Below, piece by piece: positions 2,098 to 14,509 of a stretch of DNA of 35,082 bases. Made by a program: the position numbers and the translations under genes. The DNA comes from a virus, in IMG/VR virus record IMGVR_UViG_3300022687_000016, positions 1-35,082 of that record; one strand, 5' to 3'. Below the pieces are notes generated by a model. It made no database searches. It worked only from the letters and a program-made list of their open reading frames with translations, and was not told the DNA's origin. The number at the start of each line of letters is the position of its first letter. Position 1 is the stretch's first letter.

Positions 2098-2453
2098 CCT
2101 TCCGCGCACCAGTCGTGGCGGTGACCGTCCCAGGCGACGGCCAGCCCGGCCGCGATGAGGTGTTCGCCTGCTTCTTCCCCGCCCACGAGGATCCGCGCCA
2201 GCGTTCGGCCATAGCGGTCTTCGCCCTCGCGCTCGATCGTCCATTGCCCGCCGGTCAGGAAGGCGGCGAGCTCGATCCGGGCGGTGACGGCGAGCTGACG
2301 CTCGGCGTCGCAGGCGGCGCGTCCGCCCATTTCCGGCGCGTCGATGCCGATCAGGCGGATGGTCTCGCCCGCGATCTCGACCGTGTCGCCATCGATCGTT
2401 CGGAAAGCCGGCGAGATCTGCAGCAAGGCCAGCGCGGTGAGGGTGGCAATCAC
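2094..2453 (-). CDS. Thermonuclease (SNase) family nuclease
   Basis: This 119-aa protein carries the staphylococcal nuclease core. It reads TIDGDTVEI (Asp21), RLIGIDAPE (Arg33, Asp38, Glu41) and DRYGRTLARI (Arg83), which correspond to the calcium-binding and catalytic residues of that family. It is a Ca-dependent endo/exonuclease family. The first 15 residues are hydrophobic (MIATLTALALLQISPA), a possible weak export signal without basic residues. The start is GTG, sharing GTGA with the repressor stop, so it should be made together with the repressor from the lysogenic transcript. Confidence 0.88.
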   Translation of the reverse strand: MIATLTALALLQISPAFRTIDGDTVEIAGETIRLIGIDAPEMGGRAACDAERQLAVTARIELAAFLTGGQWTIEREGEDRYGRTLARILVGGEEAGEHLIAAGLAVAWDGHRHDWCAEG

Positions 2454-3088
2454 CGCTTCGCCACTGAGGGGTCGGCGACCGATACGAAGGGCTGGGCCTT
2501 GACCAGTTCGACATCCTCGCGCAACGGGCTGCCGTCCCAGCTTTCCAGATTGTAGCGGCCGAATGTGTAGCCGCGGCGGACGACCTTGAAGAGCAGCTCG
2601 CCCGCCTTCGTCTCGACAATGCAGGCCTTGCCGATCACTTCGGCCGGGTCGATCGCGTCACGGTTGAGGCAATAGATGATCCAGCGGTCGGCGGCCGGGG
2701 GCATGGACAGGCCCCTTATCTCGTAGGCGACCAGGTCGGTGGAAGGCAGGATGCCGGGCGGATGGGCGACCTCGTAGAGCCCGTCATTCTCGCCCATCCC
2801 GTCCATCACCTGCACCGTTGCGCCCGCCCCGACGAAGCCCTTGACCCATATCCGCTTTTTCACAGGCTCGTAGGATTCACCGTAAAGCGCGGCAGGATTG
2901 AGGCCAAGGGCGGACGCAATCTTGCGCTCGTTTCTTGCGTTCAGCGTGTCGGAATAGCCGTTCAGGTAGGAGCGGATCGTTGCCGCGCTGACGCCGGTCG
3001 CGCGGGAAATAGCCGCGGCGCTGGTCAGGCCCGCGCCCGCCATCGTCCGTTTGAAGGCTTCGCGCCTGCGGTCGGCCCATTCGCTCAT
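2450..3088 (-). CDS. Phage repressor, HTH plus S24 LexA-like peptidase domain
   Basis: This is a 212-aa CI-like repressor. The N-terminal HTH spans residues 10-70 (AISRATGVSAATIRSYLNG). The C-terminal S24 domain has RGLSMPP with the serine nucleophile at 128 and LLFKVVRRG with the lysine at 168. A possible Ala-Gly cleavage site lies at 88-89 (VGAGATV), consistent with RecA-triggered self-cleavage. I chose the ATG at 3088 because it fits the family; an upstream ATG at 3145 would add 19 residues of poor sequence. No Shine-Dalgarno sequence is visible. It is divergent from the Cro-like gene, with a shared operator at 3156-3171. The proposed DNA target is TGATGA-N4-TCATCA. Confidence 0.88.
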   Translation of the reverse strand: MSEWADRRREAFKRTMAGAGLTSAAAISRATGVSAATIRSYLNGYSDTLNARNERKIASALGLNPAALYGESYEPVKKRIWVKGFVGAGATVQVMDGMGENDGLYEVAHPPGILPSTDLVAYEIRGLSMPPAADRWIIYCLNRDAIDPAEVIGKACIVETKAGELLFKVVRRGYTFGRYNLESWDGSPLREDVELVKAQPFVSVADPSVAKR

Positions 3089-3095
3089 GGACTGG

Positions 3096-3107
3096 CTTGT
3101 ACACAAG
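3096..3107. promoter_or_regulatory. Inverted repeat just upstream of the repressor start
   Basis: CTTGT-AC-ACAAG is a 12-bp inverted repeat ending eight bases before the repressor ATG. It differs from the TGATGA operator and could be a site for the Cro-like or another regulator. The role is inferred from position only. Confidence 0.35.
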
Positions 3108-3147
3108 AATCGGGCGCCCGCGTGCGGCGGGTTTCCAACGTTCATGG

Positions 3148-3176
3148 TTGACGAGTGATGAAAAATCATCATTCTC
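3148..3176 (+). promoter_or_regulatory. Rightward early promoter with repressor operator
   Basis: TTGACG (3148-3153), a 17-base spacer and ATTCTC (3171-3176) form a promoter. The spacer contains the operator TGATGA-AAAA-TCATCA (3156-3171). It matches the minus-strand promoter at 1251-1223 almost base for base from -35 through -10. The predicted start falls at about 3183, directly at the ATG of the Cro-like gene. Confidence 0.7.
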
Positions 3177-7111: not shown

Positions 7112-7854
7112 CTGACCGTCCGATCCTGTTTACCGCGCCGATGATCCGGGCGCTGCTCGAGGGCCGCAAGACGCAGACGCGGCGGGTGATCAAGAATCGC
7201 GGTGCGCTTCCGGATTATCGCGGTCCGCGCGGATGTGAGCGCGACCCGGCGATGTGGGGCTGGGAGGACGGCGCGACCGGCGAGCACATCGCTCTCGTCG
7301 CCGCGGTTCAGGGTGACCCGGTGTGGAATGGTGGCTTCGCCGTCGGCGACCGGCTGTGGGTGAAGGAGGGCTGGTCCGGTGCGCTGTCCTTTGATCGCGT
7401 GAAGCCGCGCGATCTGCCGCGAACCGCCATTTTTTATGAGGCTGACGGAGCTAAGAGCTTCGAAGATTTTGCGCCGGGCAAGTCACGGTCGTCCCGCTTC
7501 ATGCCGCGATGGGCGAGCCGCCTGACGCTGGTCGTCACCAAGGTCCGCGTTCAGCGGGTGCAGGATATCAGCGAGGAGGATGCCAAGGCGGAGGGGATTT
7601 CTGTCTTTCCGCTTCAAGACGCCGACGATCCGTCGGCCTGGTGGCAGAGCGCGCCGGGTGAAAACCAGTCTCGAACGGCTCGTGGGTCGTTCCACTCTCT
7701 CTGGGATTCCCTGAACGCCAAGCGCGGCTTCGGCTGGGATACGAACCCGTGGGTCGTGGCCGTCAGCTTCGATGTCCACTGCGCGAATATCGATCAGCTT
7801 GGGGATCGGCGCGGGTTGCTGCCCGCGCCATGCTGGCAGGTGATGCCATGCTGA
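7108..7854 (+). CDS. ASCH-like phage protein
   Basis: This 248-aa protein opens with RPILFTAPMIRALLEGRKTQTRRVIK, the signature of phage ASCH-like or 'morphogenetic' proteins. LWVKEGW, VTKVRVQRVQDISEEDAKAEGI and WDTNPWVVAVSFDV follow in the usual order. ASCH domains have an RNA-binding PUA-like fold; some are nucleases or read modified nucleic acids. The C-terminus extends about 20 residues beyond the usual NIDQLG end, into the start of the next gene. It often accompanies DUF5131, as here. Its stop overlaps the next start (ATGCTGA). Confidence 0.8.
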   Translation: MTDRPILFTAPMIRALLEGRKTQTRRVIKNRGALPDYRGPRGCERDPAMWGWEDGATGEHIALVAAVQGDPVWNGGFAVGDRLWVKEGWSGALSFDRVKPRDLPRTAIFYEADGAKSFEDFAPGKSRSSRFMPRWASRLTLVVTKVRVQRVQDISEEDAKAEGISVFPLQDADDPSAWWQSAPGENQSRTARGSFHSLWDSLNAKRGFGWDTNPWVVAVSFDVHCANIDQLGDRRGLLPAPCWQVMPC

Positions 7855-8342
7855 CCGCGCGGGAGAGGGAGTGCCTGCAACTGATCTGCGCCCGGCTCGA
7901 CCGGGACGGCGTCGCGCCGAGCTTTGCCGAGATGATGGCCGGGTTGGGGCTGGCGTCGAAGTCTGGCGTGCACCGGCTGATAAGCGGGCTTGAAGACAAG
8001 GGTTATATCCGGCGGCTGAGAGGACGCGAGCGCGCGATCGACGTGCTGAAGCGCCCGGAAGGCCGGGTGGAGATCGCCGAACAGGCGGGCTTTCCGCAGG
8101 GCCGACTGGCGATGGCGGAAAAGCTGATCGCCCACTTCCTCGATGCGACGGACCCCGGTGAACGCTTGGGTCTGGCGGCGTTCATGGACGCTGAGTTCGA
8201 CCCGGCCGGGTCGCCGGGCATGACGCTGCGCGATGTGCGCACCGCATCGATGGTGTTCGTCCGCCGCGGTCCCGTGGCCCAGACGGCCGGAGCGATCGGC
8301 CTGGCGCGCGTGAAGCGGTGCGGGCAGGGGGTGGTGCGATGA
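7848..8342 (+). CDS. LexA-type winged-helix DNA-binding protein without peptidase domain
   Basis: The N-terminal 65 residues (LTARERECLQLICARLDRDGVAPSFAEMMAGLGLASKSGVHRLISGLEDKGYIRRL) are the LexA DNA-binding fold. The remaining 100 residues lack the S24 Ser and Lys motifs, so it cannot self-cleave like LexA. I chose ATG 7848, although the frame is open from 7749, because it starts the domain and overlaps the previous stop. It could compete at SOS boxes or act as an early-gene regulator. It belongs to a run of DNA-binding-domain proteins. Confidence 0.8.
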   Translation: MLTARERECLQLICARLDRDGVAPSFAEMMAGLGLASKSGVHRLISGLEDKGYIRRLRGRERAIDVLKRPEGRVEIAEQAGFPQGRLAMAEKLIAHFLDATDPGERLGLAAFMDAEFDPAGSPGMTLRDVRTASMVFVRRGPVAQTAGAIGLARVKRCGQGVVR

Positions 8343-11476: not shown

Positions 11477-11883
11477 CCGCGCTGCGCGCCCTTCACCGGA
11501 TCCCGGACGCCGCGAACGATGCCGGGTCGCTGCGCGAGCGGATCGACGCGCTGGAGGCCGAGGTCGCCTACTGGAAAGAGCTGGCCACGGGCAGCGACCT
11601 GACCGCGCCGCCGGAGTGGGCGATGACGCCGGTGCAGGCCTTCCTGGCCGGGCAGCTGGCAAGGCGCGGCATCATCCGCCGCCAGACCGTGGCGCAGATG
11701 TGGCCCGGCAGCGCGGGCGAGGATGTGCCGCTGAAGACGGTGGATGTGCATGTCTGCCGCCTCAGGAAGCGGCTGAAGGCCCTTGGCGTGGAACTGACCA
11801 CCGTGCGGGGCGTCGGCTGGTCCGTCAGCGCGGCCGACCGCGCGCGCCTGATGGCGGCGATGGCGCCGGGAGGTGAGGGATGA
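11473..11883 (+). CDS. OmpR/CtrA-type winged-helix DNA-binding protein without receiver domain
   Basis: This 136-aa protein has a coiled-coil stretch (residues 18-37, SLRERIDALEAEVAYWKEL) followed by a winged helix of the response-regulator C-terminal type (residues 50-118). It shows TPVQAFLAGQL, TVDVHVCRLRKRL and TTVRGVGWSVS, the recognition helix and wing signature. There is no phosphoacceptor receiver. In Alphaproteobacteria the best-known member with this fold is the cell-cycle regulator CtrA, but the domain alone does not prove CtrA specificity. It overlaps the DnaA-like gene with ATGA. Confidence 0.82.
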   Translation: MTALRALHRIPDAANDAGSLRERIDALEAEVAYWKELATGSDLTAPPEWAMTPVQAFLAGQLARRGIIRRQTVAQMWPGSAGEDVPLKTVDVHVCRLRKRLKALGVELTTVRGVGWSVSAADRARLMAAMAPGGEG

Positions 11884-12089
11884 GCGATCAAAAGAAAGCC
11901 CCGAACCAGCTGTGGCCGGTCGGGGCATGCCCCCGAAAGGGTCTTGAGGCGCAACGGAATTTACCGCGCGCGATCAACGAATTTCTATCGATCCGCATCA
12001 GTCGTGGCAAGGCCGCCGGATTCGGGCGGGACTTGACGCACGTCAGCGAATGGGCACATCTTCGCCGCGCTTCGTCGAAAAAGGGCGGA
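11884..12089 (+). other. Mostly non-coding stretch with alternative hairpins; possible short reading frame
   Basis: GCCCCGA (11898-11904) can pair with TCGGGGC (11920-11926). The latter segment can instead pair with CCCCCGA (11930-11936), and GGGGCATGCCCC (11922-11933) is a perfect palindrome. This is an attenuator-like choice after the regulator operon. An ATGA at 11880 opens a long frame (MSDQKKAPNQLWPVG...), but its codon use is unlike the neighbours (many A/T third positions) and it runs through the structured RNA. I regard it as doubtful beyond the first 60-70 codons. Confidence 0.4.
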
Positions 12090-12291
12090 GTACGGGGTAG
12101 CAGCCGTACGGTTCATAGGCGCCAGACCGCGCCAGAGAACCCGCTGAGCGCGGTTTTCTCATGGTCGGGCGCAATGGGGCACCTTCGGGTGCGCCGGTTT
12201 CCTATGAGCCGGTCTGCTAACCTGTTGTCGCCCGGCCACCCGTTTAGCAGCGGTGGGCCGGGGTTCACGCGAACTCATAGGAGCCCGGCCG
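12090..12291 (+). ncRNA. Structured leader RNA, C4 antisense-like, that can hide the next gene's ribosome binding site
   Basis: The strand 12201-12222 (CCTATGAGCC...CTGCTAACC) is complementary to two places. Upstream, TAGCAG (12098-12103) and GGTTCATAGG (12110-12119) close a helix around two hairpins: 12124-12132 with 12148-12156, and a C(TTCG)G tetraloop at 12176-12195. Downstream, it pairs with TTAGCAG (12244-12250) and CTCATAGGAG (12274-12283). The last contains the Shine-Dalgarno sequence of the gene at 12292. A further hairpin (12231-12240 with 12252-12262) puts TTAGCAG in its loop. Phage P1/P7 C4 RNA uses the same logic with two short complementary blocks. The match to C4 is by layout, not by sequence search. 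Confidence 0.65.
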
Positions 12292-12600
12292 ATGCCGCGC
12301 ATCACCGAACAATTCCCCCAAGACCATTGGCAGCACCTGCCCTTCGTGCGCGATCTGCGCGCGGGGCGGCATTTCTGGACAGTCACGCCGTCCGGCGACT
12401 GGATTCAGGACGCCGCGACCGGCGCGCATTATGCGCAACTGACGCTGAACACGATGTGGCGGCACGGCGATCCGGGCCAGCTTCTGGACCGCATCCTGTT
12501 GCAGATCGCAACCGGAAAACGGCCGCTGCACAGCCGGCCATTGCCCCCGGAAACGGCCTTCATTTCCGGCTTCGCGCGGGGACTGCTTCAAATCAAATAG
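12292..12600 (+). CDS. Unknown 102-aa protein under RNA leader control
   Basis: This soluble protein (LPFVRDLRAGRHFWTVTPSGDWIQDAATGAHYAQLTLNTMWRHGDPGQLLDRILLQIATGKRPL) has no family that I recognise. ATG 12292 follows AGGAG (12279-12283) at good spacing, and that site is paired in the predicted leader structure. In P1/P7 the gene in this place is the antirepressor ant. By analogy this product may act on the repressor, but nothing in its sequence shows that. Confidence 0.65.
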   Translation: MPRITEQFPQDHWQHLPFVRDLRAGRHFWTVTPSGDWIQDAATGAHYAQLTLNTMWRHGDPGQLLDRILLQIATGKRPLHSRPLPPETAFISGFARGLLQIK

Positions 12601-12613
12601 CGGAGGCCGGGCG

Positions 12614-12874
12614 ATGAGCTACGAGCTGTCTCAACGGGTGGTGCCCATCCGGATGGGCACGTGCGCCCAAAAGCTGGTCCTGTTCCTGGCGGCATTTCAC
12701 GCGAGTCCGCGTGGCATCTGTCACATGACGCGGTCTGAATTGGCCGAGGCGGCGAGTTGCAGTGTGCGGACCGTCGACCGGGCCACGGCCTTCTGGACCC
12801 AGAGGGGCCTGATGTGGCGCACGCCAACCGGTGCGCTTCGCGTGCGCATTCCGAAGAAGGGAGCGCGCGGATGA
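12614..12874 (+). CDS. Small winged-helix DNA-binding protein
   Basis: This 86-aa protein contains a winged helix (residues 20-80: QKLVLFLAAFHASPRG, MTRSELAEAASCSVRTVDRATAFWTQRGLMWRTPTGALRVRIPKK), the same type as the N-terminus of the next gene. A GGAGG Shine-Dalgarno sequence precedes ATG 12614. It overlaps the replication gene by ATGA, which suggests a joint role at the phage origin or in early control. Confidence 0.75.
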   Translation: MSYELSQRVVPIRMGTCAQKLVLFLAAFHASPRGICHMTRSELAEAASCSVRTVDRATAFWTQRGLMWRTPTGALRVRIPKKGARG

Positions 12875-13713
12875 GCCACAGGCATAACGACTGGGCCACC
12901 GAGGCCGTGTGTGAATCGGGTTCGGAAAAGGCGGTCTTGATGGTGATCGCCAACTATGTCGGCGTCGACGGCACGTGCTATCCGGGCCAAGACACTTTGG
13001 CGCGCAAGGCCTGCGTCAGCGTGAAAACGGTCGAACGCGCATTGAAGGCTTTCGAGGCGCGCGGGTGGATCGAGCGCAGGTTGCGCCGCCGAAAAGACGG
13101 GTCGCGCACATCGGATTTGATCATCATCACGGCTGTTCGTGCCGACGAGGCTTTTGAGGCGGCACAACCCGACAATTTGTCTGGTAGTGCCGAGGTGCCA
13201 ACCCGACATCCTGTCCAAAGTCACCCGACATCCTGTCCAAAGTCACCCGACACCATGTCGGGGCTCACTACGTTTGAACCCCCAGAGGAATCCCCAGTTG
13301 AAGAACCGCGCGCGATGCGCGCGCGCAAATCCACCTCTCCGAAATCGGAACGCCGGAAGGCGACCCGGCTGCCCGAGGGGTGGGAGCCGCCGGACGCATT
13401 CATCGAGGAGGCGGTGAGCATGGGCTTGACCGAGGCGGAAGCGCGGGCCGAGGCGCACCGGATGGCGAACTGGTCACGGGGCAGTCCGAACGGGGCGAAG
13501 CTCGATTGGCGGGCAACCTGGCGAAACTGGCTGACACGCAAACTGGAAGAAAAATCCCATGGACGACACGGCAGGACAGGCAATGACGAGCGGCACCGCG
13601 CCGCTTTCGGGCGTGCTCTTCGTGCCTTTGGCGGAGGGCCGGGCGATGGTGCGGGAGCGGGGCCTGACGGCGGCGGTGCGCCGCCACGCCTCGGACTTGA
13701 AGGCCCGCCTTGA
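12871..13713 (+). CDS. Phage replication initiator-like protein (HTH plus DnaT-like C-terminus)
   Basis: The N-terminal winged helix (residues 15-75: SEKAVLMVIANYVGVDGTCYPGQDTLARKACVSVKTVERALKAFEARGWIERR) is the HTH_36 type found in replication protein O-like initiators. A variable linker contains a duplicated 20-bp segment (13206-13245, HPVQSHPTSCPKSHP region). The C-terminal part (LPEGWEPPDAFIEEAVSMGL...WRATWRNWLTRKL) resembles DnaT-type DNA-binding tails. The frame runs 155 bp into the next gene, and its last 50 residues are low-complexity Gly/Ala/Arg. A lost stop near 13560 is likely. Confidence 0.75.
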   Translation: MSHRHNDWATEAVCESGSEKAVLMVIANYVGVDGTCYPGQDTLARKACVSVKTVERALKAFEARGWIERRLRRRKDGSRTSDLIIITAVRADEAFEAAQPDNLSGSAEVPTRHPVQSHPTSCPKSPDTMSGLTTFEPPEESPVEEPRAMRARKSTSPKSERRKATRLPEGWEPPDAFIEEAVSMGLTEAEARAEAHRMANWSRGSPNGAKLDWRATWRNWLTRKLEEKSHGRHGRTGNDERHRAAFGRALRAFGGGPGDGAGAGPDGGGAPPRLGLEGPP

Positions 13714-14509
13714 CGAGCGGCATCCGGGCAAGGCGGCCGTCGCGGTGGAGCGGCTGTCGGCGCACTATCCGCGCATCGACCGGGACGAGCTGGCCGCGCA
13801 GCACTGGGCCGAAGACTGGTTGAGCGATACGGCGCATTTGCCGCCGCTGGTCATCGAGGAGGCCTGCGCTGCATGGCGGCGATCGGAAGAGCGCTGGATG
13901 CCCACGCCGGGCCAATTGCTGTCGAAGGCGGAGCGCATCATGGCGCTGAAGCTGGCCGAACTTCGCCGCTGCCACGAGCTGCTCGACGGGCCGCCCGAGC
14001 CAACCAGCGGACGGAAGGGCGATGGCGCGCGCCGACCGCCGAAGGGCGAAAAAGTTGCCCCCGACGCCCATGCCCAGACCGAAGCGCCGGTGGCCGAGAT
14101 CATCATCGCGGATCTCGACATTCCCGGCGGGGCGGAAGGCAGCGTGATCCGCGCCGCGCTCAATGGCTGGCAGAGGCCCGCCAGCGTGCGGCCCTGGATC
14201 GGGCGGTTCCGCGTCGTCGATGCCAGCGATGGCGGCGAGCCGGACTGGAAGCTGGCCGTCGACGGGGACGAGTTCGCCTTCGCCGCCGTGTTCACCGGGG
14301 CGGCCATCCACCTGGGCCTGATGGCGCAGGGCGGGACGCTGCGCACCTGGTCGATGGCGTTCGCCGAACGCTTCGTCGGCAAGGGGCGGGGCCAATGGGC
14401 CGATCACGACCCGTGGGGCGTCGCGCTGAAGCCGGAGGTCGTCGAGGGGAAGGGCCCCGATGCCGATGCCGAAACCCACCGAGATCCAGCCAAGGACCAA
14501 GCCGCATGA
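13559..14509 (+). CDS. Probable replication protein, helicase loader-like N-terminus
   Basis: This 316-aa protein has residues 45-125 (LSAHYPRIDRDELAAQHWAEDWLSDTAHLPPLVIEEACAAWRRSEERWMPTPGQLL) that follow the pattern of phage replication P or G39P-type helicase loaders: helices, then W and an F/M-PTPGEL motif. The C-terminal half (residues 175-300) is a mixed domain (WQRPASVRPWIGRFRVV) that I do not recognise. Its place after a winged-helix initiator supports a loader role. The start could be ATG 13559 or ATG 13583; both overlap the initiator gene. Confidence 0.6.
   Translation: MDDTAGQAMTSGTAPLSGVLFVPLAEGRAMVRERGLTAAVRRHASDLKARLDERHPGKAAVAVERLSAHYPRIDRDELAAQHWAEDWLSDTAHLPPLVIEEACAAWRRSEERWMPTPGQLLSKAERIMALKLAELRRCHELLDGPPEPTSGRKGDGARRPPKGEKVAPDAHAQTEAPVAEIIIADLDIPGGAEGSVIRAALNGWQRPASVRPWIGRFRVVDASDGGEPDWKLAVDGDEFAFAAVFTGAAIHLGLMAQGGTLRTWSMAFAERFVGKGRGQWADHDPWGVALKPEVVEGKGPDADAETHRDPAKDQAA

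Follow-up and report, generated by a model that had tools for sequence, protein, structure and literature searches.

Organization of the locus

The window, i.e., the whole stretch of DNA analyzed here, is the 35082-base record IMGVR_UViG_3300022687_000016, a single virus record with a G+C content of 67.7%. On its + strand, a leader, a C4 antisense RNA and a row of four genes follow one another (Table 1). The phage has its own terminase, unlike the satellite P4. This terminase is closest to those of Roseobacter, Bordetella and Paracoccus phages (~41-44% identity in the best of the matches listed), and the CI-like repressor matched seven phage records, including Ruegeria and Paracoccus phages. 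From the relatives of these two proteins, we infer that the window probably derives from an alphaproteobacterial phage. It also contains a CII-like gene (phrog_101, 9.5e-10), and at 7842-8342 (+) a LexA-type DNA-binding domain (PF01726, 1.5e-14) marks a further regulator-like gene.

Table 1. Coordinates of the C4 locus and of the CI-like repressor in the window
Feature	Positions	Strand	Sequence or evidence
CI-like repressor	2450-3172		phrog_4, 9.3e-12
b1, leader target of b'	12094-12103	+	core TAGCAG at 12098-12103, 6-nt match
a1, leader target of a'	12112-12119	+	7-nt match at 12113-12119
Terminator-like leader hairpin	12126-12159	+	arms 12126-12132 / 12148-12154, then TTTTCT
C4 antisense RNA	12157-12243	+	Rfam RF01695, 75 bits
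a', loop of third hairpin, recognizes a1 and a2	12199-12208	+	TTCCTATGAG
b', junction strand, recognizes b1 and b2	12214-12222	+	CTGCTAA
b2, downstream target of b'	12242-12250	+	core TTAGCAG at 12244-12250
a2, downstream target of a'	12274-12283	+	CTCATAGGAG; covers the Shine-Dalgarno sequence
Shine-Dalgarno sequence of gene 12292	12280-12283	+	GGAG, by sequence
First gene behind C4 (102 aa), an orphan at the position of icd in P1	12292-12600	+	codon-like composition
HTH protein, replication-initiation-like	12614-12874	+	phrog_4617, 2.7e-8; Vibrio phage O-like proteins, 33%
Replication initiation protein, O-like	12871-13713	+	phrog_1032, 2.6e-23; HTH_36, 3e-11; overlaps preceding gene
316-aa coding frame, next gene in the row	13559-14509	+	codon-like composition

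The earlier note on this DNA had described the controlled gene as one without known function, and all searches made agreed with this. Searches of Pfam, PHROGs, phages, plasmids and viral contigs, and of 385 genomes (the last run without a positive control), yielded no relative of the 12292 product. Its best match in PDB was not useful (E 0.52), and its predicted structure was poor (pLDDT 46.7). No family was found in Pfam or PHROGs for the 13559-14509 product, and none of the four genes (12292, 12614, 12871 and 13559) matched an antirepressor family in these two collections. Because the first gap after the 12292 gene is only 13 nt and is followed by an overlap, the genes behind C4 likely form one operon, as judged from their arrangement.

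Genes 12292 and 12614 have ribosome sites (12280-12294 and 12602-12616) that are near copies of each other with the pattern GGAG-C/G-CCGG-C/G-CGATG. A fit between the 3' strand of C4 stem P1 (12229-12237) and 12605-12613, before the second gene, was considered probable background because the 9-mer occurs eight times on the + strand. An ORF spanning C4 (11880-12617) was taken as a chance frame since the composition over C4 is not codon-like.

Identification of the C4 RNA

The earlier note had proposed a C4-like switch of the P1 and P7 design and pointed to the Rfam C4 model. In the window, this model (RF01695) scored well above its gathering score of 45 bits (75 bits, E 4.4e-13) and was covered over its whole length (1-87), with the three-stem fold P1-P2-P3 of the family and a' in the loop of the third hairpin. 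The long stem P1 (12162-12178 with 12221-12238) encloses a TTCG hairpin and the a' hairpin, and both-sided changes were observed in 18 of the 22 consensus pairs inside C4 (44 sequences). The fold had a z of -4.4 for C4 itself and of -4.2 for the 202-nt stretch 12090-12291. A blastn comparison of 11880-13740 with 50,697 phage records yielded nine matches, which came from Escherichia and Salmonella phages including P1 and were confined to the C4 stretch; thus, P1 c4 was recovered by plain blastn.

The order of elements is the same in the two phages: GGGGTAGCAG, TTCATAGG, C4, GTTTAGCAG and CTCATAGGAG in the window, and TTTAGCAG with CTTACG upstream, C4, TTTAGCAG downstream and ACTTACGAGG over the icd Shine-Dalgarno sequence in P1. 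Based on the Rfam score, the match to P1 with its same order of parts, and the covariation among homologues described below, 12157-12243 is by sequence a genuine C4 RNA and not merely a "C4-like" one, and the comparison with P1 and P7 is supported. According to PMC5320573, RNase P cleavage in P1 yields a C4 of ~77 nt, the loops of which block a ribosome site; GGT at 12163-12165 of the window agrees with the RNase P site described there.

Pairing and covariation of loops and targets

Both recognition strands of C4 have targets on each side of the RNA. Downstream, a' TTCCTATGAG and a2 CTCATAGGAG can form nine Watson-Crick pairs and one G-U, and b' and the core of b2 can form seven pairs. In dinucleotide shuffles of the target stretch, which served as the chance test, the a'-a2 match was seen in 0/5000 and the b'-b2 match in 254/5000. 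The two blocks that the earlier note had paired with 12201-12222 (12244-12250 and 12274-12283) were both present, and their joint occurrence was not reproduced in shuffles (0/20000). As that note had also claimed, the second block covers the Shine-Dalgarno sequence, the GGAG of which lies inside a2. The proposed pairing with an upstream arm (12098-12119) corresponds to a second target copy, which consists of 7 nt at a1 and 6 nt at b1 and is kept in relatives; the two leader matches arose jointly in 56/20000 shuffles, and a'-a1 arose in 43/5000. In the window, b1 alone is not above chance, because the b'-b1 match arises in 1226/5000 shuffles. Three of the four loop-target matches in the window were at least 7 nt long, and its a' loop sequence was absent from the other 48 distinct loops of the pattern-found set (see below). 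A small hairpin (GTTC-ACGC-GAAC, 12263-12274) is located between b2 and a2; by reading, a similar GTTC-N4-GAAC was noticed in loci L141 and L176, and GTTG-N5-CAAC in P1.

Stronger evidence than the shuffles is provided by a swap test across loci, in which loops were exchanged between loci (1798 or 1786 swaps) and the longest exact match was measured. The Rfam set comprised 43 loci, i.e., the window and the 42 best matches kept as loci, sometimes several per genome. Matches of at least 7 nt were found for a'-a2 in 34/43 loci (vs 5.4% swapped), for a'-a1 in 30/43 (vs 3.9%), for b'-b2 in 36/43 (vs 6.7%) and for b'-b1 in 32/43 (vs 8.2%), these percentages not being probabilities since the loci are related to different degrees. 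The covariation in homologues that the earlier note had named as a check was therefore observed for both downstream pairs. Pattern searches of genomes and viral contigs, which fix parts of C4 and are thus biased to close forms, gave 140 matches, 93 of which were distinct and had a full downstream stretch. In this set, where the test was restricted to a', 7 nt were reached by a'-a2 in 73/93 loci (vs 2.5% swapped) and by a'-a1 in 67/92 (vs 2.0%), although these loci are not independent and many are P1-like.

Leader hairpin and competing folds

Between a1 and C4, the leader contains a terminator-like hairpin (ACCGCGC/GCGCGGT followed by TTTTCT) in an isrK/seqA-like position. This hairpin (12126-12154) had been overlooked in the earlier note, as had the fact that the optimal structure is that of C4 (12157-12243). 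Its elements ACCGCGCC and GCGGT were conserved in 7/7 aligned alpha-type loci, including the window and a Thalassospira plasmid, and a terminator-like hairpin occurs at the same place in P1, N15 and P4. The hairpin (12126-12159) was not picked up by a consensus scan. The isrK model (RF01394) gave 16.3 bits (E 0.42) at 12069-12158, below its 50-bit cut-off, with the position and the terminator-like hairpin in agreement; at the equivalent place it gave 62.4 bits in N15 and 60.8 bits in P4. A likeness was also seen to Burkholderia cenocepacia, in which isrK and C4 share one transcription unit according to PMC4603805. No sigma-70-type promoter was recognized in a promoter scan of the locus, and a TTGACG/CATCTT candidate, noticed by eye only, was set aside.

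The optimal fold of 12070-12291 (-111.2 kcal/mol) contains C4. The upstream pairing, which had been said to close two hairpins, one with a C(TTCG)G loop, does so as a near-optimal alternative: when the leader pairing was forced in the same stretch, the energy was -109.6 kcal/mol, and the two folds are 1.6 kcal/mol apart. Pair probabilities in 12090-12291 were ~0.62 for C4 stem P1, 0.26 for a1-a' and 0.11 for a2-a'. Cofolding gave no C4-target duplex beyond the separate folds (-76.2 for both), loop-loop pairing being outside what this procedure models. These folds resemble the IsrK-orf45-anrP locus of Gifsy-1, where, according to PMC4825925, a leader arm pairs alternatively with a downstream segment and two near-equal folds exist, one silent and one active. 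However, Gifsy-1 controls an antirepressor in this way, whereas an orphan and replication genes are found in the window.

C4 loci in other genomes

We examined what follows C4 in 66 distinct loci, each extending for at least 2 kb beyond the RNA (113 before removal of near-copies). A same-strand replication gene was present in the 5 kb downstream of C4 in 12/66 loci, nine of which were not themselves sources of the queries (the window, L186 and P4 were query sources or the same locus). Antirepressor queries matched 7/66 loci, four of which were query sources or the same locus (P1, N15, L085 and L188). One locus had both gene types, and 48/66 had neither by the queries used; therefore, the link of C4 to downstream replication genes is not general. 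The placement of C4 before a replication gene is already known, and the family comprises both arrangements, exemplified by P4 and P1.

First genes were picked mechanically; the pick failed for 4/43 Rfam loci and some pattern loci, and the 66 proteins obtained are a subset. By Pfam, they included AntA (four), Bro-N (three), P22_AR_N (two), ORF6N (two) and KilAC (one). In alpha-type loci, antirepressor-type first genes were found in L141 (BRO family) and in L178, L180 and L182, which form one homology cluster with L166. The 66 first genes fall into 28 homology clusters, a diversity suggestive of rapid turnover of the first gene targeted and of C4 as an exchangeable regulator.

Several loci had other features. 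In L086-L140, mostly Pseudomonas contigs, C4 with mostly matching targets precedes small DUF6124 (7/66) or DUF3077 (3/66) genes. L188 (G501) has C4, an antirepressor-like gene and then a stretch 29% identical to the 12871 protein of the window over 75 aa, i.e., both layouts in a single locus. L185 (G617) and L186 (G527), in inferred Alphaproteobacteria, contain a tRNA, an integrase, a ~900-aa Toprim primase, a short gene and C4, and these elements look like P4-type satellites.

With regard to distribution, C4 was detected in 62/398 Pseudomonadota genomes (60 above the cut-off). GcrA, a marker of Alphaproteobacteria, was present in 127/398 genomes, and C4 occurred in 1/127 genomes with GcrA vs 61/271 without it (lists compared by eye). 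Within the inferred alphaproteobacterial class, which is the class of the one GcrA-containing C4 genome, C4 was found in 4/385 genomes, this one included. A named alphaproteobacterial example is a Thalassospira lucentensis plasmid, which carries C4 directly ahead of a BRO-family gene. Some genomes were rich in C4: a proteobacterial MAG of ~5.9 Mb (G001, locus L111) had 18 matches, and several others had at least 10 each. Alphaproteobacteria are not among the orders given for C4 in the available part of PMC5320573, and the corresponding part of PMC2864571 places C4 in Proteobacteria and phages and no finer. A search that covered part of the literature found no report linking C4 antisense RNA, Alphaproteobacteria and phages. 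C4, a familiar device by which P1, N15 and P4 stay dormant, is rare in alphaproteobacterial genomes, and the window carries it in an unusual genetic setting and, probably, an unusual host group.

Comparison with known systems and proposed mechanism

The locus shares with immI of P1 and P7 (c4-icd-ant) the RF01695 score, the three-stem fold, b1/a1 upstream and b2/a2 downstream, a2 on the Shine-Dalgarno sequence, and a short gene in the icd position. In P1, C4 affects ant via icd translation and Rho. The window differs in that no antirepressor was found behind its C4, its first gene is unrelated to icd, and replication genes follow instead. With the CI RNA of P4 and its seqA/seqC sites, the likeness is that the P4 RNA belongs to RF01695 (74.9 bits), that an isrK/leader hairpin lies upstream, and that, by gene order only, a C4-family RNA heads a replication operon. 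However, the P4 gene encodes an alpha primase and the initiators of the window are O-like (phrog_1032/4617 type), and its leader was not recognized as isrK. According to PMC4825925, P4 CI RNA pairs with sites on either side of it and thereby ends transcription of the replication genes. N15, likewise a phage, encodes a LexA-type prophage repressor and Cro, has a C4 (78.8 bits) and has isrK upstream, but its C4 is located at the repressor-like gene 32, ahead of the ant gene 30 and away from the replication gene 37.

We consider it likely that the window locus is a C4 module of the P1/N15/P4 type that silences gene 12292 and the O-like replication genes. The identity of C4, the two target pairs and the way these covary in relatives, and the overlap with the Shine-Dalgarno sequence were read from the sequence; from these we infer processing of C4, its action in trans, a translation block and an effect on the replication genes. 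A single transcript would comprise the leader with b1/a1, the leader terminator, C4, b2/a2, gene 12292 and the replication genes. C4 would be cut from it, as by RNase P in P1, and its a' and b' would pair with a2 and b2 of the same or another transcript, hiding the Shine-Dalgarno sequence of gene 12292. The untranslated mRNA would end early, and the O-like replication genes would be kept silent both in the lysogen and when another copy of the phage enters. Except for a recognizable promoter, the sequence elements that such a mechanism requires are present in the window. The leader copy b1/a1 would offer a second, nearly equal pairing that may disarm C4 in cis or tie it to the leader terminator; a leader role of this type is described for P4 seqA and IsrK (PMC4825925). 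More tentatively, this may be a full, tailed lambda-like phage of Alphaproteobacteria in which C4 RNA directly gates the phage's own lambda-O-type replication operon, beside a CI/CII-like circuit.

The occurrence of C4 directly ahead of antirepressors elsewhere (AntA, Bro-N, P22_AR_N, ORF6N and KilAC), alpha-type loci included, together with the CI-like repressor in the window (phrog_4, 9.3e-12), would fit a P1-like immunity. In that case, gene 12292 would encode, or be coupled to, an undescribed type of antirepressor acting against the 2450-3172 repressor; C4 would guard the lysogen by holding this antirepressor silent, and the replication genes would be incidental. We regard this as unlikely: for the 102-aa product, neither an antirepressor family nor any other protein came up as a match, and its poor predicted structure (pLDDT 46.7) lends no support to an antirepressor fold. 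Far less probable is that the C4 module was inherited and, although its link to the targets is intact in sequence, has become irrelevant here, with immunity left to the CI/CII-like circuit alone. The genes for such a circuit are present (phrog_4; phrog_101, 9.5e-10), but the a' pair appears to be still under selection, as suggested by the three of four matches kept at 7 nt or longer and by an a' loop unlike the other 48 distinct loops. Chance complementarity in G+C-rich sequence (67.7%) without any regulatory RNA, which the frequent b'-b1 match in shuffles (1226/5000) might have suggested, is refuted by the Rfam score (75 bits, E 4.4e-13) and the covariation in homologues, and both downstream targets together were seen in 0/20000 shuffles.

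The preferred reading is thus a C4 module acting on gene 12292 and the replication genes behind it. Our survey adds to previous knowledge of C4 by testing, across families, whether each of its two loops covaries with the upstream and downstream target copies. The window would extend the C4 family to phages and mobile elements of Alphaproteobacteria, with the whole module intact, including the leader copy and the terminator-like hairpin. If C4 does gate the replication operon directly, a phage that is not a satellite would possess replication immunity in the style of P4, with the competing pairings of leader, C4 and ribosome site lying a few kcal/mol apart.
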